From positions 1-37,701 of the forward strand of contig CAJBZP010000016.1 in NCBI GenBank assembly GCA_903960135.1: a DNA stretch of 37,701 nt. Direction: 5' to 3'. This document shows, in pieces, positions 5,029-25,025 of this stretch. Source of the stretch: an uncultured Actinomycetes bacterium. Its GTDB lineage: Bacteria > Actinomycetota > Actinomycetes > S36-B12. The position numbers and the translations under genes are program-made. The first letter of the stretch is position 1. Each line of letters opens with the position of its first letter. Below the pieces are notes generated by a model, which worked only from the letters and a program-made list of their open reading frames with translations, did no database searches and was not told where the DNA came from.

Positions 5029-6485
5029 ACCACCGGCGTACGAACAGCTTGGATTCCGTGCTCACTGCTCGCGGTAAACGCCAGGTTTGTCGCTGCTACC
5101 TCATCTTTCGTGACGGCCACCTGACCACTGGTAATGGCTTCGGTGTAGGCAGCGAAATCCTTACCGACCTGCTCCGCATACACCAGCCCGAAGTTCATCA
5201 TCGCGTTGTCGAACTTGGTACTGGTGCCAAGGTACGACGCAATGGCAATCGCGTCGCCAGATCGTGCATGCGCTCGAGCAAGGGTGTGACCGCAGATCCT
5301 CGCGTACGCGAGCAGGTTGTCAGGGCCTAACAAGGTGACATCCGGTGACCACTTCATGTCACGCAGTTGTCGAATGTAGAAGTCACGGCCTTGACTCCCG
5401 CGAATCCAGCCCAAGAAGATATCGCTGGCCGCCTGAGTCAGGCGTTGACCGCTGACTACCCGCTCCCCTTGCTTATCGAACGCACTTGGTGCGGTAACCG
5501 GCTCAAGCACACTTCTAACCGCCTGCTTAACCTGCAACACCAACAGGTCCGACTCGTCACGGCCTTGAAGTAAAATCACAAATGCGAGCAGCCCGACACT
5601 GCCCACGCCAACCACTTTGTGGCCAATATCCACCAATTGATATCGGCTCAGCAGTTCGCGCCGATCATCGATCAAGGTCCCCTGGTATTGATCGACGAGC
5701 CCACTAATTACGGGGTGCACATCGCTCCCCATGGCAATCCGTACCAAGACCGGTGGGGCATTGACAAATTGGCGCCGTCCGTCAACAACTTCGGTCAACT
5801 TGCTGATCGCCGACCAAGCGTCACGCTTTTGCGCCTTCGCTACGGTTTTCTCGGCGGCCACCACCCCCTTCTTACCGGCAACATCTCGCCCCCAGCCAAC
5901 AAGTACGCTGGCATCAACCCGGTTGTACCAGACATCCAACTCACCCATCTGCGCGAAATTTGCAATGGCGGTGCGATACGAGTTTGCGGCCGCGCGCGTA
6001 GTGCTTTCAATTTCAGCACTAGAAAAGCCGTTGTTTTGCGCCGCCAACGTGAAAGATGTTGTTAACCGTGCGACATCGAATTCGAACGGGCCTGGCAAAG
6101 TCTCATCAAAGTCATTTATGTCGAAGATGACTGCCCGATCAGGCGCTGCGAATAACCCAAAGTTCGAAAGGTGGGCGTCACCGCATAACTGAACCTGTAG
6201 TCCGGTGTTCGGACGGGTACCAAGATCCGTCGCCATCGTCAATGCCGAACCGCGATAGAAAGTAAATGGGTTAACCGACATCCTCGAGTGTCTGAGCGGC
6301 AGCAGAGTCGGAACTCGATCCACCTCTTGCCCGGCAAGTTGAGCAACGACATTTTGGCGATCGGGCCCCGGTTCCCAAACCGCCAGCGCGGTGCGTGGCG
6401 CAAGTTTTCGGGCATCCAGCCCAAGGGTCTCGCGCGCTCCTACCGTGCTAGCTCGGCTGCTGCCTGGACCGTTGTGTGTAGACAT
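5025..6485 (-). CDS. DUF2252 family protein
   Basis: FYRGSALTMATDL, LCGDAHLSNFGLFAAPDRAVIFDINDFDETLPGPFEFDVARL is the diagnostic DUF2252 block. Confidence 0.88.
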   Translation of the reverse strand: MSTHNGPGSSRASTVGARETLGLDARKLAPRTALAVWEPGPDRQNVVAQLAGQEVDRVPTLLPLRHSRMSVNPFTFYRGSALTMATDLGTRPNTGLQVQLCGDAHLSNFGLFAAPDRAVIFDINDFDETLPGPFEFDVARLTTSFTLAAQNNGFSSAEIESTTRAAANSYRTAIANFAQMGELDVWYNRVDASVLVGWGRDVAGKKGVVAAEKTVAKAQKRDAWSAISKLTEVVDGRRQFVNAPPVLVRIAMGSDVHPVISGLVDQYQGTLIDDRRELLSRYQLVDIGHKVVGVGSVGLLAFVILLQGRDESDLLVLQVKQAVRSVLEPVTAPSAFDKQGERVVSGQRLTQAASDIFLGWIRGSQGRDFYIRQLRDMKWSPDVTLLGPDNLLAYARICGHTLARAHARSGDAIAIASYLGTSTKFDNAMMNFGLVYAEQVGKDFAAYTEAITSGQVAVTKDEVAATNLAFTASSEHGIQAVRTPVV

Positions 6486-6528
6486 GGGAGCAGGGTAGTC
6501 GCCTTGTTCGGTACTTACCCAGTAAAAA

Positions 6529-6563
6529 TTGACATGTTATGACCAACCAACTAGTTTGTTAGT
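6529..6563 (+). promoter_or_regulatory. Promoter/operator of the Phd-PIN operon: TTGACA (6529-6534), TAGTTT (6552-6557), overlapping near-palindrome AACCAACTAGTTTGTT (6545-6560)
   Basis: 17-bp spacer; predicted +1 falls about on the ATG at 6564; palindrome with one mismatched pair covers the -10. Confidence 0.55.
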
Positions 6564-6806
6564 ATGACAATCGAAGTAGGAGTTTTCGAGGCCAAGACGC
6601 ACCTTTCCGCGCTCCTGGACCAAGTAGTGGCCGGCGAAGATTTCCTCATAACTAAAAGAGGCCAGGTGGTGGCGCGCCTTGGACCCGCAGTTGAGCCCGG
6701 ATCCCGGGTTGACGAGGCCTACCGGCTACTCGCACTCGCTCGGAGCAACTCGAACCCAGGACCAGATTCGATTCGCGAGTTAATTGATGACGGCAGATAC
6801 AAGTGA
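6564..6806 (+). CDS. Type II antitoxin, Phd/YefM family
   Basis: MTIEVGVFEAKTHLSALLDQVVAGEDFLITKRGQVVARLGP is a classic Phd/YefM N-terminus; overlaps the downstream PIN gene by 4 bp. Confidence 0.85.
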   Translation: MTIEVGVFEAKTHLSALLDQVVAGEDFLITKRGQVVARLGPAVEPGSRVDEAYRLLALARSNSNPGPDSIRELIDDGRYK

Positions 6807-7207
6807 AAGTGGTCCTCGACGCCTCCGTTGCCATCAGTTTCATCATCATTGATGAGTTTTCGCAACAAGCGAGCAAGGCACTTGAGCGGGTGGCCGAACA
6901 AGGCGCTTTGGTTCCCGCTCTTTGGGATTTCGAACTTGCCAATGCCCTTCGATCGGCGGAGCGCCGCGGCCGCATCTCACAGGCCGGAACTGCTCAGGGG
7001 ATTGCCGGTATCAAAGGACTCGATATTGAGCGAGTTGGGCCGCCCACCAATCTGACCCGCCTCATTGACGTTGCGCGTGAACGTGATTTAAGTGTGTACG
7101 ACAGCTCCTATCTGGCATTGGCTCTTGACCGGGGGCTTCCCCTCCTGACCTTCGACACCCGACTTGGGCAGGCCGCAGCAGCGGCTGGGGTGCACCTAAT
7201 CCAGTAA
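6803..7207 (+). CDS. VapC-like PIN-domain toxin
   Basis: VVLDASVAISFI, WDFELANAL, DVARERDLSVYDSSYLALALDRGLPLLTFDTRL: PIN acidic residues present. Confidence 0.87.
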   Translation: MKVVLDASVAISFIIIDEFSQQASKALERVAEQGALVPALWDFELANALRSAERRGRISQAGTAQGIAGIKGLDIERVGPPTNLTRLIDVARERDLSVYDSSYLALALDRGLPLLTFDTRLGQAAAAAGVHLIQ

Positions 7208-17292: not shown

Positions 17293-18362
17293 TGGTAATC
17301 CGCCGCGGTGATACCGGGGCGGCCGTCGCGGAGGTGCGCGCACGGCTCGCGCATCTGGGTCTCCTCCAGTTTTCCCCGACCCAAAATCCAACGGATAGTA
17401 ATGCGAATCCGGACGATGTCTTTGATGATGACCTAGACATTGCAGTCCGCACCTTTCAGCAGGAACGTGGCTTAACTGTCGACGGAATTGTCGGCCCGCA
17501 AACGTTCCGCCGACTTGATGAGGCGCGTTGGCAACTCGGTGACCGTGTGTTGCGTTTTGTGCCAGGGCATCTGATGACGGGTGATGATGTTGCCGAACTT
17601 CAACGTCGACTTAATGAGCTTGGATTTAATAGTGGGCGCGCCGATGGCTTCTTCGGCACCAACACTGATCTTGCGCTACGGGAACTACAGCGAGGGGTTG
17701 GCTTAGCGACCGACGGTATTTGCGGCCCTGAATGCTTTAAAGCCTTCGACCGCCTAATGCGGACAGTTAGCGGCGGCAACCCCGAGCGGCTGCGGGAGAA
17801 GGTCCACATGGCTTCACTGCAAACCGGCATCGCCGATAAAGTAGTGCTCATTGATCCGGGAAATGACCTTGGTGAAAATATCTGCCAATCGGTCGCGGAG
17901 CGAGTCGAGGGGCGCCTAGCGGCCCTTGGCACCCAGGTTTTACTCACCCGCAGCGCGCAGCGAGCAAAAGCCATGGATGAAGCCGAAAGAGCCGACTTCG
18001 CCAATCGCACTGGTGCGGATCTCGTTATTTCAATTCACGTTACTCAAGTCGAGAGCAAGGTGCCGGCCGGTGCCGCCACCTTCTATTTCGGTGCACCAGA
18101 TGGCGGCCCGCACTCCGCAAATGGGCGAGCGTTGGCTGAGCTCATCCAGGAAGAACTTTGTCGGCGTACCTTCGCCATTGACTGCCGAACCCATCCGCGC
18201 ACGTGGGATCTACTGCGACTTACTCGGGTTCCAGCCGTTCGTGTCGAGCTCGGCTACCTATCCAACCCGATGGATGCGGGCAGGCTGAGCGATGTCAAAA
18301 TGCAGGACGCATCGGCTGAGGCAATCGCAACCGCCCTCAAGCGGTTTTGCGCCCCGCGCTAG
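17292..18362 (+). CDS. cwlM: CwlM-like N-acetylmuramoyl-L-alanine amidase homologue (two peptidoglycan-binding domains + amidase_3 fold)
   Basis: VIRRGDTGAAVAEVRARLAHLGLL and DDVAELQRRLNELGF PG-binding repeats; VVLIDPG..., DLVISIHVTQ, VRVELGYLSNPMDA; directly after trxA. Confidence 0.88.
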   Translation: MVIRRGDTGAAVAEVRARLAHLGLLQFSPTQNPTDSNANPDDVFDDDLDIAVRTFQQERGLTVDGIVGPQTFRRLDEARWQLGDRVLRFVPGHLMTGDDVAELQRRLNELGFNSGRADGFFGTNTDLALRELQRGVGLATDGICGPECFKAFDRLMRTVSGGNPERLREKVHMASLQTGIADKVVLIDPGNDLGENICQSVAERVEGRLAALGTQVLLTRSAQRAKAMDEAERADFANRTGADLVISIHVTQVESKVPAGAATFYFGAPDGGPHSANGRALAELIQEELCRRTFAIDCRTHPRTWDLLRLTRVPAVRVELGYLSNPMDAGRLSDVKMQDASAEAIATALKRFCAPR

Positions 18363-19000
18363 TCCGCGCCTTCGGCTAAGTCACTCGCCCACGCGTCAAA
18401 AAATGCTCGTATCTTGGCTACCTCGCTCAATGGAATCGGTAGGTCACCATCTCGATATCTAGTCAACTGCCGCATTGCTAACCCCAGAACAACGGGGTTC
18501 ATCCCCGGGTCTAATTCAATTGCGAAATTCACCAGCTCTTTGGTAGAACGATGTCGGGTTACGCTGTAAACATCAACGAAATCCCGTGGCATTGCCCGAT
18601 CAAAAAGTGCAAGAAGTTTGCGTGCCGCAATTTCATCAGGTGCGAAGGTCGGACCAAGGACAGACATGGTTGGCGGAAGCACCGGCGGCGAGTCAAGGGC
18701 AAGGTCAACTATCACGGTCTCTGGGCCGTGCACGTGAAGGCGTACAAAGGTCTCAGTTGACCTGCGCACATCTATCCGCCAATTGCGCTTAAGGACTTCC
18801 GACTCAAATGCTGCCCGTGCGATTTGGACATCACCTGGAATTGCAGTAAATGCCTCCACGTCTTCAGTGGGTCGAACACTCATTCCTTGTGCCAAGAGGG
18901 CCATGCCTCCCACTAAGAGGAATGAGGAGGACTCAGGAAGGGAAAAGAGTAGGCGCACTATTTCGATTTGAAAGTCAGAAACGTGCGGAACTTCACTCAT
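18359..19000 (-). CDS. AbiEii/MenT-like nucleotidyltransferase (putative toxin)
   Basis: FLLVGGMALLAQGMSVRPTEDVEAF nucleotidyltransferase-like motif; PDEIAARKLLALFDRAMPRDFVDVYSV typical of the family; overlaps the upstream HTH gene by 4 bp. Confidence 0.7.
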   Translation of the reverse strand: MSEVPHVSDFQIEIVRLLFSLPESSSFLLVGGMALLAQGMSVRPTEDVEAFTAIPGDVQIARAAFESEVLKRNWRIDVRRSTETFVRLHVHGPETVIVDLALDSPPVLPPTMSVLGPTFAPDEIAARKLLALFDRAMPRDFVDVYSVTRHRSTKELVNFAIELDPGMNPVVLGLAMRQLTRYRDGDLPIPLSEVAKIRAFFDAWASDLAEGAD

Positions 19001-19512
19001 ACTGCTTCGCTAGAAAATGTTCTCTCGATAAGTGGCTGCCAAGCGGAACGGATTGCTTCGGGCAGGTGTACTTCCGCCCAGATATCTATCAACAGGTTCC
19101 CATCTACCAAAGCTACGATGTCGCTTGGCTCACCTTCACTTAACAGTATTTGATAGGCAAGCATCCGTTGCTGCCTGTCTGATAGATCACGACGTTTACC
19201 CGGGGTGGACCAATCGACATGGAGCGGGAGTATGACCGTGGCGAGCGCGGTGGCAGGGGGAAGTTGCGGCAACTGGTCTGGGACGAAGAACGGCTTTCCA
19301 CGTCGATCCAAGTATTGAGTGAAGTTTGGCAACGGCACCGCCACCAAGTGCTGACCGTTGGCCGCTAGCAGACGCTCCAGGGTGTCCAAAGTAGGGCTGC
19401 GGTGACCGTGTTCGTACGCGGAGATATTCGGGCGTGAAGTGCCAGCAAGTAGGGCCACCTGCGACTGCGACAAGCCCGATGCGCGCCTTGCGTCTGAGAT
19501 CAGTGTTGGCAC
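18997..19512 (-). CDS. XRE-family HTH protein (putative cognate antitoxin)
   Basis: ARRASGLSQSQVALLAGTSRPNISAYEHGHRSPTLDTLERLLAANGQHL is a canonical XRE HTH; GGGAGG upstream of the GTG start. Confidence 0.8.
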   Translation of the reverse strand: MPTLISDARRASGLSQSQVALLAGTSRPNISAYEHGHRSPTLDTLERLLAANGQHLVAVPLPNFTQYLDRRGKPFFVPDQLPQLPPATALATVILPLHVDWSTPGKRRDLSDRQQRMLAYQILLSEGEPSDIVALVDGNLLIDIWAEVHLPEAIRSAWQPLIERTFSSEAV

Positions 19513-19730: not shown

Positions 19731-21023
19731 ATGACCGGCTCCCGGCTAGATCCTTGGGTTGACTCCTATGCGGAGCGAACCCACGGCATGGCTGCCTCCG
19801 AAATCCGGGCGCTGTTTTCGGTGGCTTCCCGCCCCGAAGTTGTCTCGTTGGCCGGTGGAATGCCATTTGTCCAGGCTCTGCCCCTGGAGCAGATCGCCGA
19901 GACGGTAAAAAACCTGCTCTTGGAGCGGGGTGCTCAAGCCCTTCAATATGGCTCGGGGCAAGGCGATGTCGTGCTACGTGAACAGATCTTGGACGTGATG
20001 CACGATGTCGGTGTGGTGGCGCACCCCGACGACATCGTCGTTACGACAGGTTCGCAGATGGCCTTGGACTTAGTCACTCGCGTTTTTTGTGATCCCGGCG
20101 ACGTGATCTTGGTTGAAGCACCGTCCTATGTCGGAGCGCTCGGGGTTTTCCGTGCCTACCAATGCGGTGTTGAGCATGTAACTATGGACGATGAAGGCTT
20201 GGTACCTGCGGCCTTGAGTGAGGCAATTGTGCGCGTGCGGGCCTCGGGTCGACGCATCAAGATGCTCTACACCATTCCCTCCTTTCATAATCCAGCCGGT
20301 GTATCACAGGGCGCCCAGCGTCGACTTGAAATTTTGGCCATCGCTCAACAGGCGGGGATTTTAGTTCTTGAAGACGACCCTTACGGGTTGCTCGGCTTTG
20401 ATGGTGCGGTGCCGCGGGCGATGCGGGCCGATGATGCCAATGGGGTCATCTACCTCGGCTCATTCTCCAAGACCATCGCCTCTGGCCTTCGCGTTGGTTG
20501 GGCTGTTGCCCCGCACGGGGTTCGTGAGAAATTGGTTCTGGCTGCAGAATCCGCTGTGCTGTGCCCGTCCAACTTCGCCCAGTTGACAATCTCGGAGTAC
20601 TTATCCACCCAGCCGTGGCGTCAACAGGTCAAAGTTTTCCGTGAGCTCTACCGAGATCGCCGCGATGCGCTCCTGGAATCACTGCAGGCGATGATGCCCG
20701 AAGGCACCACCTGGACTATCCCCGCCGGTGGTTTCTACTCCTGGCTCACTTTGCCAAATGGCTTGGACGCAACGGCCATGTTGCCTCGAGCAATTGCGGC
20801 ACTTGTTGCCTACGTGCCCGGTACTGGTTTTTATGTTGATGGTCAGGGCCGACAGAACTTGCGCCTTTCCTACTGCTACCCAGAACCTGATCGAATTCGC
20901 GAAGGTGTGCGCCGGCTGGCAGCCGTCGTTGAAGGTGAGCTTGAATTGGCTAATACTTTCGGTACCACCAGTGGGCTGCATCCCACTGGAGGTTCATCCA
21001 TGCCAGCACCGGATCTGCGGTAA
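19731..21023 (+). CDS. PLP-dependent class I/II aminotransferase (2-aminoadipate/MocR-C-terminal-like)
   Basis: VSLAGGMPFVQALP, LQYGSGQGDVVLREQI, TTGSQMALDLVTRVF, YTIPSFHNPAGVS, GSFSKTIASGLRVGWAVAP. Confidence 0.9.
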   Translation: MTGSRLDPWVDSYAERTHGMAASEIRALFSVASRPEVVSLAGGMPFVQALPLEQIAETVKNLLLERGAQALQYGSGQGDVVLREQILDVMHDVGVVAHPDDIVVTTGSQMALDLVTRVFCDPGDVILVEAPSYVGALGVFRAYQCGVEHVTMDDEGLVPAALSEAIVRVRASGRRIKMLYTIPSFHNPAGVSQGAQRRLEILAIAQQAGILVLEDDPYGLLGFDGAVPRAMRADDANGVIYLGSFSKTIASGLRVGWAVAPHGVREKLVLAAESAVLCPSNFAQLTISEYLSTQPWRQQVKVFRELYRDRRDALLESLQAMMPEGTTWTIPAGGFYSWLTLPNGLDATAMLPRAIAALVAYVPGTGFYVDGQGRQNLRLSYCYPEPDRIREGVRRLAAVVEGELELANTFGTTSGLHPTGGSSMPAPDLR

Positions 21024-21028
21024 AGGGT

Positions 21029-21970
21029 ATGCAGGTTGTAGTTCTCGCAGGTGGTCTTTCACCTGAGCGTGATGTTTCGCTGCGTTCAGGCCGTCGGGTC
21101 GCCAAAGCCCTGCGGGCAGCTACTGACTTTGAGGTAATTGAATCCGATGTTGATACAACACTGCTTGCCAGGCTGCGTGCGCAGGCCCCCGATTGTGTAA
21201 TACCGGTGCTGCACGGGGCCGCCGGTGAAGACGGTGCCCTCCGAGATGTGTTGCATTCGTTAAACATCCCATTCGTGGGTTCAATAGCAGCCGCCTGCCG
21301 GCTCGCTTTTGATAAGCCGGTGGCAAAGACACTGCTAACTAATGCTGGGGTTAGTACCCCCGCCGCGGTTGCGCTGCCGCATTCAACATTTCGCGAGCTT
21401 GGTGCCAGTGAGGTGCTCGCTGCCGTGCTCGACGCCGTTGGCCTGCCTTTGATTGTTAAGCCAACAAAGGGTGGCTCAGCACTTGGTGCTGCTTTAGTTC
21501 ACGAGGCTGCGCAATTCCCCGCTGCGATGGTCGGCTCATTCGCCTATAGCGATGTCGCCTTGATGGAGAGTTGGGTCCAAGGAGTTGAGGTCGCTGTTTC
21601 GGTGCTCGATACCCCAACCGGTCCGCAAACTTTACCCCTCGCTGAGATCGTCCCGATGGGTCAGATTTACGACTACACTGCCCGCTATACCGCTGGTACT
21701 ACTGAGTTTTTCGTGCCGGCAAGGCTTTCTGCTGATGTTGCCCAGCGCTGTGCTGATGTTGCACTTACTGCCCATAAGGCCCTCGGCCTACGTGACTGGT
21801 CGCGCACCGATCTCATAGTTGATGCAGCTGGCACGCCGTGGTTCCTCGAGGTAAATGTCGCCCCCGGCATGACCGAGACGTCATTGTTCCCGCAGTCCCT
21901 CGCTGCCGCTGAACTATCACTTGGTGAGATCACAGCCCAACTCGTTCGTACAGCTATTAACCGCGGCTAA
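21029..21970 (+). CDS. ddl: D-alanine--D-alanine ligase
   Basis: LAGGLSPERDVSLRSGRRVAKAL, PVLHGAAGEDGALRDVLHSLNIPFVGS, VKPTKGGSALGA, DLIVDAAGTPWFLEVNVAPGMTETSLFPQS. Confidence 0.9.
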   Translation: MQVVVLAGGLSPERDVSLRSGRRVAKALRAATDFEVIESDVDTTLLARLRAQAPDCVIPVLHGAAGEDGALRDVLHSLNIPFVGSIAAACRLAFDKPVAKTLLTNAGVSTPAAVALPHSTFRELGASEVLAAVLDAVGLPLIVKPTKGGSALGAALVHEAAQFPAAMVGSFAYSDVALMESWVQGVEVAVSVLDTPTGPQTLPLAEIVPMGQIYDYTARYTAGTTEFFVPARLSADVAQRCADVALTAHKALGLRDWSRTDLIVDAAGTPWFLEVNVAPGMTETSLFPQSLAAAELSLGEITAQLVRTAINRG

Positions 21971-22016
21971 TCCACCGCAGTGGCGGTCACGCCGATTGCG
22001 CGGCGAGGCTCGCGTC

Positions 22017-22802
22017 TTAGCCGGGCACCTTGCTGAGAAGCGAATCGATGATCAACTCACTGGCCGTATCGATGTCGTACCCGTCCGGCAGGGCGGTGAC
22101 GAGCAATGACAGGTCCTCCCGGAAGCCCGAAACCTTGAGCTTCGCACGCAGGTTGTCGATCGCCCGCGATGCGGTGTACCCCTCGGGCCGGTAGGGGCCG
22201 AAACAGTCGACAATGGCCTGCGGGTCAAGGCGCAGTTGCTCTAGGGCGAGCCACAAGTCGAACACGTCACGACCCTTGGAGCGCTGGAACAATGCACGCA
22301 ACTTCGTCGAAACCAGCTCGGCTGAGGTGAACGTCGTCAGGATGCACTCGCCGGTGAACCAGGTTGACGTCACTTCGTACGGCAGCGCGACCAGGGGCTG
22401 AGCCGGTGAAGTCTCATGGGTGTTGATCTCGATCTTTATGCGGAGCTTGGCGTTGGAATTCGTTGCGGGCGCCTCGAGGCGCATCTTCGGAAATGGTCCG
22501 AGCGATGTGGAGTGCACGGACAGGCCCGTCTCGACGGCAACCTCTCGCAGGGCATCGAATACCGGACCGATCTGCGTGTGGCTACGCCGGACGAAGTCCA
22601 GATCCTCGCTGTAGCGCAGCGGAAAGGGCAGACAGACCTGATGGAGGCACGTGCCGCCACGGAAGATGAGTTCTTTTCGCAGGAGCGGGTGGTCGTAGAT
22701 GGCGACGATGGTGCGTGCCAGGAGGAGGTCTTGCTCGACTTGTTCCCTGCTCGGCCAAGGGCGAGTATTGCCCCACGCGGTGATCGCGGCTGCCGGGATC
22801 AT
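22017..22802 (-). CDS. AbiEii type IV toxin, nucleotidyltransferase
   Basis: ELIFRGGTCLHQVCLPFPLRYSEDLDFVRR; LVSTKLRALFQRSKGRDVFDLWLAL; 4-bp overlap with AbiEi. Confidence 0.9.
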   Translation of the reverse strand: MIPAAAITAWGNTRPWPSREQVEQDLLLARTIVAIYDHPLLRKELIFRGGTCLHQVCLPFPLRYSEDLDFVRRSHTQIGPVFDALREVAVETGLSVHSTSLGPFPKMRLEAPATNSNAKLRIKIEINTHETSPAQPLVALPYEVTSTWFTGECILTTFTSAELVSTKLRALFQRSKGRDVFDLWLALEQLRLDPQAIVDCFGPYRPEGYTASRAIDNLRAKLKVSGFREDLSLLVTALPDGYDIDTASELIIDSLLSKVPG

Positions 22803-23617
22803 AGGTCCGGCTCCACCTCAGCATTGACGACGAGACCCCAGCGCTTGTCCGATCGGCCCCGCCGTTGCCCCCGGGCATCCAGCAGTGCGTGCGCACGCTC
22901 AGTCGAGTGCTCAGCGAGGCGGCTGGCGATCAGGTCTCGGTCCAGTGGGGCATCAACGAGGTCCATGATCCAACCCAACCGTCGAAGGCTGGACTGCGGG
23001 AAGGCGCTCGCCGCTCCCAACACGGCATCTGCTGACAATCCCGTCTCCGCGACAAGTTCGGCGATGACGGTCGCGACATTGCTAAGACCGCCTGCATAAC
23101 CGGGTCGGCTGCTCAGATCCAACAAGGTCGCGGCCGGAGACGACACGCGCACGGTGCCTGAGCTTGAGTTTACCGAGACAACGGGAACCGCCGGAAGGTG
23201 CTCGCGCGAGTAGAACCGAATCCGCACTCGTCCGAAATCTCGATCAGCAAGGATCTTGTCGACCATCACCTGGAAGACTTGCGGGCGTTGGTGCGCGGCC
23301 CCGTGCAACTCGGCGGCAGACAGCAAGGCGACGTAGTACTGCCGGCTGTTAGCCGCCATCATCGGATCGATGAAGTCCATCGCCGGGACAGCACGCCACA
23401 ACCGGTACTCGGGTGGCACTGCGACGTACAGACCACGAGCGGGACTGAACATCAGTCCCGCTTTGCGCAGCCGCACCATGGCATCAGCCGCAGCGTGGAG
23501 GTCGAGGCCCATTAGGTCCGCAGCGCTCCTCAGGTCGACGACCGGGCGGCCGCGCGAAAGCAGGTAGTCGCTGAGGTGCCGAGGACGCACCCCGGCATCT
23601 GCATACTCGACTGTCAC
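22799..23617 (-). CDS. AbiEi-like antitoxin / transcriptional regulator (likely GTG start 23617; track start 23704)
   Basis: LSDYLLSRGRPVVDLRSAADLMGLDLHAAADAMVRLRKAGLMFSPARGLYVAVPPEYR winged-helix N-terminus; GGGAGG RBS ahead of the GTG. Confidence 0.85.
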   Translation of the reverse strand: MTVEYADAGVRPRHLSDYLLSRGRPVVDLRSAADLMGLDLHAAADAMVRLRKAGLMFSPARGLYVAVPPEYRLWRAVPAMDFIDPMMAANSRQYYVALLSAAELHGAAHQRPQVFQVMVDKILADRDFGRVRIRFYSREHLPAVPVVSVNSSSGTVRVSSPAATLLDLSSRPGYAGGLSNVATVIAELVAETGLSADAVLGAASAFPQSSLRRLGWIMDLVDAPLDRDLIASRLAEHSTERAHALLDARGQRRGRSDKRWGLVVNAEVEPDL

Positions 23618-23627
23618 TCGGCCTCCC

Positions 23628-23698
23628 AGTGTATAACTCCCAGTCAAGACAGCATTTTTCACTGTCTTGCGGTAAAGATTAGCACATATTAGTGTATA
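23628..23698. promoter_or_regulatory. AbiE promoter/operator: inverted repeat CAAGACAG-N9-CTGTCTTG (23645-23669) flanked by AGTGTATA direct repeats (23628-23635 and 23691-23698)
   Basis: Read directly; lies immediately upstream of the reassigned abiEi start. Confidence 0.6.
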
Positions 23699-23803
23699 GA
23701 ACACGTGATAGGCAGTGTTTTCTCCGGTCTTGCCCCTGATACTTACACCCCTGCACCGTCATGGCGGGTTCCGGGCCCGGCTGTTCGATTTGCCTCCATC
23801 GGT

Positions 23804-24063
23804 GGAGAGTTGGGCCCAAGGAGTTGAGGTTGCGGTTTCGGTGCTCGATACCCAAACCGGACCACAAGCTTTACCCCGCGCTGAGGTGGTACCGATGAGT
23901 GAGATTTACGATTACATCGCCCGCTATACCGCTGGTGCTACTGAGTTTTTCGTACCGGCGAGGCTTTCTACTAATGTCGCGCACCGATCTCATAGTTGAT
24001 GCAGCTGGCACGCCATGGTTCCTCGAGGTAACTGTCACCCCTGGCATGACCGAGATGTCATTG
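23804..24063 (+). pseudogene. Remnant of a second ddl 3' region (homologous to 21565-21886), frameshifted by a 62-nt internal deletion
   Basis: Manual alignment: 22 mismatches in the first 178 nt, then a 62-nt deletion, then homology resumes at GCACCGATCTCATAGTTGATGCAGCTGGCACGCC. Confidence 0.9.
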
Positions 24064-24077
24064 CTTGCACTCAGTAA

Positions 24078-25025
24078 TCAGCGACGATCAATCAGGTCAG
24101 CGATCCGGCGCAAGTCATCACCATCAGCGCACTCAATAACAATCTTGCCCCGCGCCGCATTCTTCATGAACCCATCAACTTGCACCCTGGTATCAAGTTG
24201 ATCAGCTATTCGCTGCTGCACATCATTTACTAAGTCAGCCATTGCCGTTTCACGACTTTTAGGTTTACGGGTTCGCTTCGTGCGTTCGCGGCCATCGGCT
24301 GCCCCGACAAGAATGAGTTCTTCTACCGAGCGCACACTTAAGCCTTCGGCCACGATGCGCTTTGCCATTTCCTCCATGGACTGGTCATCTTCAAGTGATA
24401 ACAAAGCGCGAGCATGGCCTGCGCTAAGTACACCGGCCGCGACCCTGCGCTGCACATCAGGGGGTAACTTCAATAACCGCAACGTATTTGATACTTGCGG
24501 GCGGGAGCGCCCGATACGTTTAGCTAACTCTTCTTGGGTGCAACCAAAATCAGCAAGCATTTGGGAATACGCCGCAGCTTCTTCCAAAGCGTTTAGATCC
24601 GCCCGGTGCAGGTTTTCCAACAACGCATCACGAAGTAGTGCATCGTCTTCGGTGTCACGAATGATCGCGGGGATCGAAGTGAGCCCAACCTCACGACAGG
24701 CACGCAACCTACGCTCGCCGGCAACAAGTTCAAAGTTGGTTCCAGCCCTACGCACCACAACCGGCTGCAAGAGCCCGATCTCCCTAATGGAGTAAACCAA
24801 CTCGGCCAGCGCCTCCTCGTCGAAGACCGCACGGGGTTGGCGCGGGTTCGCGGCAATGTCACCAATTGGGATCTCGGCATACACCGCAGCCGGGCCCACC
24901 TGGGCTACCTCACCTGTTAACTTCCGGGCCCGGGCATCAGCAGGCTCGGACTTGGCCGCTGTGGGTATGAGCGCGCCTAAGCCTTTACCCAGACCACGCT
25001 TTGCGGGGTTACTCACCGGTAGCAC
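24078..25025 (-). CDS. parB: ParB/Spo0J chromosome partitioning protein
   Basis: GLGKGLGALIP, IANPRQPRAVFDEEALAELVYSIREIGLLQPVVVR, ELVAGERRLRA, LLENLHRADLNALEEA; HTH KRIGRSRPQVSNTLRLL. Confidence 0.97.
   Translation of the reverse strand: MLPVSNPAKRGLGKGLGALIPTAAKSEPADARARKLTGEVAQVGPAAVYAEIPIGDIAANPRQPRAVFDEEALAELVYSIREIGLLQPVVVRRAGTNFELVAGERRLRACREVGLTSIPAIIRDTEDDALLRDALLENLHRADLNALEEAAAYSQMLADFGCTQEELAKRIGRSRPQVSNTLRLLKLPPDVQRRVAAGVLSAGHARALLSLEDDQSMEEMAKRIVAEGLSVRSVEELILVGAADGRERTKRTRKPKSRETAMADLVNDVQQRIADQLDTRVQVDGFMKNAARGKIVIECADGDDLRRIADLIDRR

Follow-up and report, generated by a model that had tools for sequence, protein, structure and literature searches.

The 37,701-nt stretch analyzed here (the window; contig CAJBZP010000016.1 of assembly GCA_903960135.1, from an uncultured Actinomycetes bacterium) carries an intact abiEii-abiEi operon on the minus strand between two copies of the 3' end of ddl (Table 1). 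Judged by the conflicting phylogenetic signals along the window, the block of ddl, AbiE and ddl remnant is shown to have been imported from a related lineage into a chromosome like that of G003, the vertical sister of the window's genome (G000) and the carrier of the resident type. We consider it probable that the locus arose in two steps, in which insertion of a ddl 3' end with AbiE in or before the donor lineage would have been followed by transfer of the block to an ancestor of G000 and decay of the remnant there. The relatives used were nine genomes of the same genus, a small set consisting entirely of drafts, with the ddl region present in seven; G002, G006, and G007 form the donor-type clade.

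Table 1. Features of the ddl-AbiE-parB region, in window coordinates
Feature	Coordinates	Strand	Remarks
Imported tract: aminotransferase 3' end, ddl, AbiE cassette, ddl remnant, parB 3' half	20830..24560		G002/G006/G007 type
Intact ddl paralogue, D-Ala-D-Ala ligase family, 313 aa	21029..21970	+	Pfam Dala_Dala_lig_C 4e-43
Duplicated ddl 3' unit, putative full extent	21564..21982	+	Start from G000, end from G002
AbiE cassette common to G000 and G002	21983..23781		95% nt over 1690 aligned nt
abiEii, nucleotidyltransferase-type toxin (DUF1814)	22017..22802	-	PF08843 1e-27; PADLOC AbiEii 1e-76
abiEi, antitoxin, presumed autorepressor	22799..23617	-	PF09407 1e-30 (C-terminal domain); PADLOC AbiEi 3e-69
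Inverted repeat, perfect, CAAGACAG-N9-CTGTCTTG	23645..23669		Upstream of abiEi; candidate AbiEi operator
Filler, 21 nt, cassette end to ddl remnant	23782..23802		Not in G002
Decayed ddl 3' copy	23803..24063	+	62-nt internal deletion at GTCGC repeat; gene end lost
parB	24078..25025	-	3' half, to about 24.56 kb, within imported tract

The AbiE operon and the two ddl copies

The two AbiE genes are co-directional and overlap by 4 nt, and AbiEii keeps the GG...DLD, KLRALFQR, and RDVFD stretches, which are motifs named for AbiEii proteins (PMC3985639). Coding differences between the G000 and G002 operons fall mainly at third positions (18 of 28 and 20 of 29), and upstream of abiEi G002 retains 7 bp of each arm of the inverted repeat (7-8 bp). 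Based on the kept motifs, the third-position differences and the conserved inverted repeat, this is likely a working type IV toxin-antitoxin pair. It would be an ordinary operon of its type, repressed by its own antitoxin, and its retention may reflect selection by addiction or phage defence. The composition of the operon, which an earlier reading of the DNA (the sequence-only reading) had proposed to compare with that of its surroundings, is indeed distinct from that of ddl (GC 62-65% and GC3 72-79% for abiE; 57.5% and 53% for ddl). A close plasmid or phage carrier was considered and rejected, as the nearest AbiEii proteins match at only ~41% (Rhizobium plasmids) and ~37-38% (two faecal phage records). 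The window contains another gene of the AbiEii family, accompanied by a helix-turn-helix partner, between an amidase gene and the aminotransferase gene (18362-19512); this gene is found in G003, shortened in G001 and decayed in G004, and none was detected at that place in G002, G005, or G007.

Direct-repeat alignment confirmed that the ddl duplication is real, with codons ~179-286 present twice and the decayed second copy beside parB. The alignment consists of two blocks, 21564-21747 with 23803-23986 (184 nt, 24 mismatches, 87%) and 21799-21886 with 23976-24063 (88 nt, 5 mismatches, 94%), for which blastn E values of 1.5e-62 and 6e-36 exclude a chance match. The 62-nt shift in register between the blocks is the basis for assigning an internal deletion of that length to the second copy, and comparison with the G002 allele places this deletion at a short GTCGC repeat. 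The sequence-only reading had counted 22 differences in the first 178 nt, which became 23 on recounting, and had placed the remnant directly against the parB stop codon; the alignable remnant in fact ends at 24063, ~14 nt short of the stop (24078). The complete duplicated unit is estimated at 419 nt, extending from codon ~179 to 12 nt beyond the stop codon, with terminal letters CCGCAGTG. No convincing match within the genus was found for the 21-nt filler that precedes the remnant; a 33-nt match to a gene of G059, which we read as acetaldehyde dehydrogenase-like, was judged to be chance because the remaining weak matches fall in unrelated places.

The remnant and the intact ddl of G000 differ at 31 positions, 15 of which are alleles known from other genomes and 16 of which are private to the remnant, the private count taking in a few poorly aligned bases at the ragged end. 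The private substitutions are distributed as 6, 6, and 4 over codon positions 1, 2, and 3, a pseudogene-like pattern by which the remnant is, in all appearance, decaying neutrally. These 31 differences, with 15 alleles seen elsewhere, uphold the earlier judgment that the pair is too divergent for a fresh duplication. The premise that recombination had occurred at an essential gene is weak, given that G000 has a second, unlinked Ddl (contig C90, 21503-22282; L002), which is 32% identical and has a stronger ligase family score; the ddl of the window may be neither the only nor the main ligase of G000.

Import into a G003-like chromosome

The window is mostly 90-97% identical to G003 to the left of ~19.6 kb and to the right of ~25.1 kb, and is closest to G007, G002, and G006 from ~20.8 to 24.5 kb. 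We scored discriminating sites, defined as those at which the G003 base differs from the base common to G007 and G002. The G003 base is present at 159 of 180 such sites at 17.6-18.6 kb (donor base at 21), at 18 of 230 at 20.8-24.6 kb (donor base at 212) and at 161 of 205 at 24.8-26.0 kb (donor base at 44). The mosaic borders of the tract lie at about 19.6-20.8 kb and 24.6-25.2 kb, with a finer mosaic in the aminotransferase gene (19.6-20.8 kb).

Gene trees gave the same pattern. In the full-length ddl tree G000 groups with G002, G006, and G007 (99/97) and a clade of G000 and G003 is rejected (delta-lnL 101.7), and the 3' end of parB is likewise donor-type, with G000+G003 rejected at p=0.036. 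The genes to either side pair G000 with G003, at 100/100 for the amidase gene in the left flank and 97/96 for parA in the right flank. A tract of conflicting phylogeny thus lies between vertical DNA on both sides, the arrangement that import by homologous recombination produces. The sequence-only reading had suggested that the resident ddl was replaced by a related, AbiE-linked allele, leaving the old 3' end behind; the ddl tree bears out the foreign origin of the intact gene, but the remnant is not the old 3' end of this host, as described below.

The position of the tract borders also bears on the idea that the ddl 3' end was duplicated locally in the G000 lineage long ago, with AbiE inserted between the copies later. 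We regard this as highly improbable since both ddl copies and the 3' end of parB are within the imported tract, and both the cassette and the duplication occur in G002 as well, although a grouping of the remnant with the intact G000 copy is not rejected when tested with the short remnant alone (AU p=0.35).

Origin of the ddl remnant

The remnant had been expected to belong with the vertical lineage. Instead, it groups with donor-type alleles (97/97), its identity being 88.6% to the intact ddl of both G000 and G002, 87.9% to G006, 87.5% to G007, and 79.9% to G003. A clade of the remnant and G003 fits worse, with a borderline AU p of 0.039; as the remnant is short its placement within the donor type is loose, and grouping with the G002 remnant is also compatible with the data (AU p=0.22). 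The donor-type grouping, the identity to G003 and the AU value together led us to reject a resident, G003-type ddl end in favor of a donor-type one. Considered with the decay pattern and the alleles shared with other genomes, the grouping indicates that the remnant is not a fresh duplicate, nor is it the ddl end native to the G003 lineage. Judging from the arrangement in G002, the event that left an old ddl end behind most likely took place at an earlier stage, within the donor clade or prior to it, the finished arrangement then being transferred; the idea of an old end left behind would apply one lineage earlier than was proposed.

G002 provides a second view of the block, although its arrangement spans two contigs, C15, which ends in ddl-abiEii, and C29, which starts with abiEii-abiEi-ddl 3' copy-EamA, joined solely by an exact 95-nt end overlap. 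The G000 and G002 cassettes share the end ...GGGTTCyGGGCCCGGC. The ddl 3' copy of G002 retains its stop codon and continues into the junction found in G006 and G007, which are free of AbiE, implying that the insertion with its 3'-end duplication is older than the transfer. Past the cassette end, G000 has the filler and then ddl from codon ~179, and G002 has ddl from codon ~230 directly, with CCGGC common at the join; the difference between these junctions calls for either a subsequent deletion or a second event. Most simply read, the cassette was inserted once and G002 afterwards lost sequence by deletion at the CCGGC repeats, the alternative being independent junctions.

The tail of the intact G002 ddl has one difference in 37 nt from G004, versus eight from its own remnant, and the tail of that remnant is of the G007/G006 type (three and six differences, respectively). 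The AbiE-linked intact tails of G000 and G002 are both of the G004 type. That the two G002 tails match different alleles, the remnant's being the type of genomes with no AbiE at this place, favors the arrival of AbiE already linked to a ddl 3' end of foreign origin, the resident end being left behind. Upstream of the tail, the G002 remnant and intact copy have four substitutions exclusive to the two of them, a pattern just as compatible with gene conversion or with a local duplication.

These observations allow evaluation of a different origin, in which an AbiE unit was inserted behind ddl and duplicated a target of ~420 nt, the copies diverging before the block was transferred. Direct target copies do flank the unit, variable long target duplications have been reported for mobile restriction-modification units (PMC3874152), the private substitutions shared by the two G002 copies fit, and the AU test does not reject the remnant and intact copies as sisters. 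However, over the final ~20 coding nt and the trailer the two G002 copies are unlike and match different alleles, 15 of the 31 differences in G000 are alleles of other genomes rather than private decay, and 420 nt exceeds the order of 100 bp cited for such duplications. We consider this origin unlikely.

In our preferred two-step account, incoming DNA that linked an AbiE operon to the 3' end of a ddl gene would have been inserted at the corresponding end of the resident ddl, either before or within the G002/G006/G007 lineage, giving the order ddl, AbiE, displaced ddl 3' end. This could have occurred by a RecA-dependent single crossover of a circular molecule carrying the ddl 3' end and AbiE or, alternatively, by homology-facilitated illegitimate recombination anchored in ddl. 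The finished block would then have entered the G003-like ancestor of G000 by homologous recombination, for which conserved ddl/aminotransferase DNA on one side and parB on the other probably served as arms, as suggested by the tract borders. Free of selection, the displaced end in G000 would have gathered substitutions at all codon positions, undergone the 62-nt deletion at the short repeat and lost its last codons along with whatever preceded parB.

The contents of the ddl-parB interval vary among the relatives. It is nearly empty in G001 and G005, and an EamA-like transporter gene is located 3' of ddl in G002, G004, G006, and G007; G006 and G007 provide the AbiE-free ddl-EamA junctions with which the sequence-only reading had proposed to compare. 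In G003, where the assembly does not run through the interval, genes for a reverse transcriptase, a bAvd-like and a template-like protein lie right behind ddl (L040 14282-16153, contig C66), and at this junction they probably represent a diversity-generating retroelement. At nine loci with both genes in other genera, ddl and parB are about 20-240 nt apart, convergent in eight and in the same direction in one (G021). Linkage of ddl to AbiE in those genera was dismissed, as the gap is too short for an AbiE operon. The variable contents within the genus, and the lack of room in other genera, mark the junction as a recurrent insertion place in this genus. G002 has a second AbiE-like pair, with a truncated toxin gene, between EamA and parB (L042 3171-4848, contig C29).

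AbiE operons at other sites and comparison with known systems

We surveyed other AbiE operons for direct repeats of 42-208 nt located ≤450 nt away on both sides. Such repeats flank 8 of 66 operons versus 3 of 481 controls (Fisher p=4e-6), the controls being same-sized blocks placed on the same contigs, which is a simple control. In four of the eight cases the repeat is a tRNA 3' half, of tRNA-Met in L076, L077, and L081 and of tRNA-Glu in L087, where AbiE has a tRNA-Glu 3' half on one side and the full gene on the other (5084-7152; 42 nt identical). By sequence, the L072 repeat appears to be a gene end and that of L085 looks like a repeat element. Because the three tRNA-Met cases are related to one another, the eight do not count as independent observations, and we regard the excess as a lead for AbiE in general and not a proof.

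Tandem arrays of tRNA-Met 3' halves enclosing single toxin-antitoxin modules were observed in G012 (contig C18; L081 5028-10238, L212/L216), G101 (contig C67; L077 1108-4868), and G100 (contig C43; L076 5039-7159). In G012, the 3' halves are at 173.35, 175.27, and 178.53 kb and the full tRNA gene at 185.2 kb, with blocks that hold AbiE and a HipA/HipB-like pair; a neighboring tRNA-Met block in G101 holds a tyrosine integrase. The public MAG records of L068, L070, L071, L076, and L077 are titled Bifidobacterium breve, titles that look wrong as their contigs group in the genus or family of the window. The settings at ddl, in the tRNA-Met arrays within the family and, in other phyla, at further sites raise the tentative possibility that AbiE operons often move as solo cassettes into gene or tRNA 3' ends, leaving a direct duplication of that end. 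If the pattern is general, it would offer a testable mobility route for type IV toxin-antitoxin modules.

Gene 3' ends are classic integration sites. AbiE might accordingly be all that is left of an integrase-bearing element that was site-specific for the ddl 3' end and brought a replacement 3' end, and AbiE operons of the same bacterial family are indeed enclosed by tRNA-Met 3' halves in arrays, of which one includes a tyrosine integrase; prophage e14 at icd is a precedent (PMC2973815). We find this decidedly doubtful, as the ddl repeat is several times the usual length of an att core, the genes identified between the ddl copies and next to them include no integrase in either G000 or G002, and the closest AbiE relatives (66-67%; L070 and L071, in G020 and G101) gave no flanking repeat.

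The AbiE locus as found can be accounted for by known kinds of process. Its value is as a resolved example of the entry and spread of a toxin-antitoxin pair without mobility genes of its own, in which AbiE-free sites, a copy in the donor clade and a recipient can all be recognized; situated behind a conserved gene, AbiE can be carried between species by ordinary recombination at ddl. The operon itself resembles AbiE of Streptococcus agalactiae (PMC3985639) in its two genes, 4-nt overlap, DUF1814 toxin motifs and inverted repeat before abiEi, but is situated beside ddl between copies of a gene end. Insertion of restriction-modification genes with long target duplication, as the work of Nobusato (2000) is cited in PMC3874152, likewise places an addiction-type unit between direct target copies, whereas here the unit is AbiE, the repeat is ~420 nt and the copies resemble different alleles. 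Like the ddl block, e14 supplies a variant 3' end that displaces that of the host gene, and its loss puts twelve substitutions into icd (PMC2973815); the ddl locus differs in having no integrase, no phage genes and a longer repeat. Further parallels are the displacement of T6SS modules in Vibrio, followed by spread via homologous recombination (PMC5361080), and homology-facilitated illegitimate recombination, in which 3-10 bp of microhomology are used at the non-homologous join (PMC3240628). In these systems, too, a module enters with one homologous arm, the old 3' piece is pushed downstream and the finished block spreads by homologous recombination, but at the ddl locus the displaced piece is a useless, decaying gene end and the arm is a conserved cell-wall gene.
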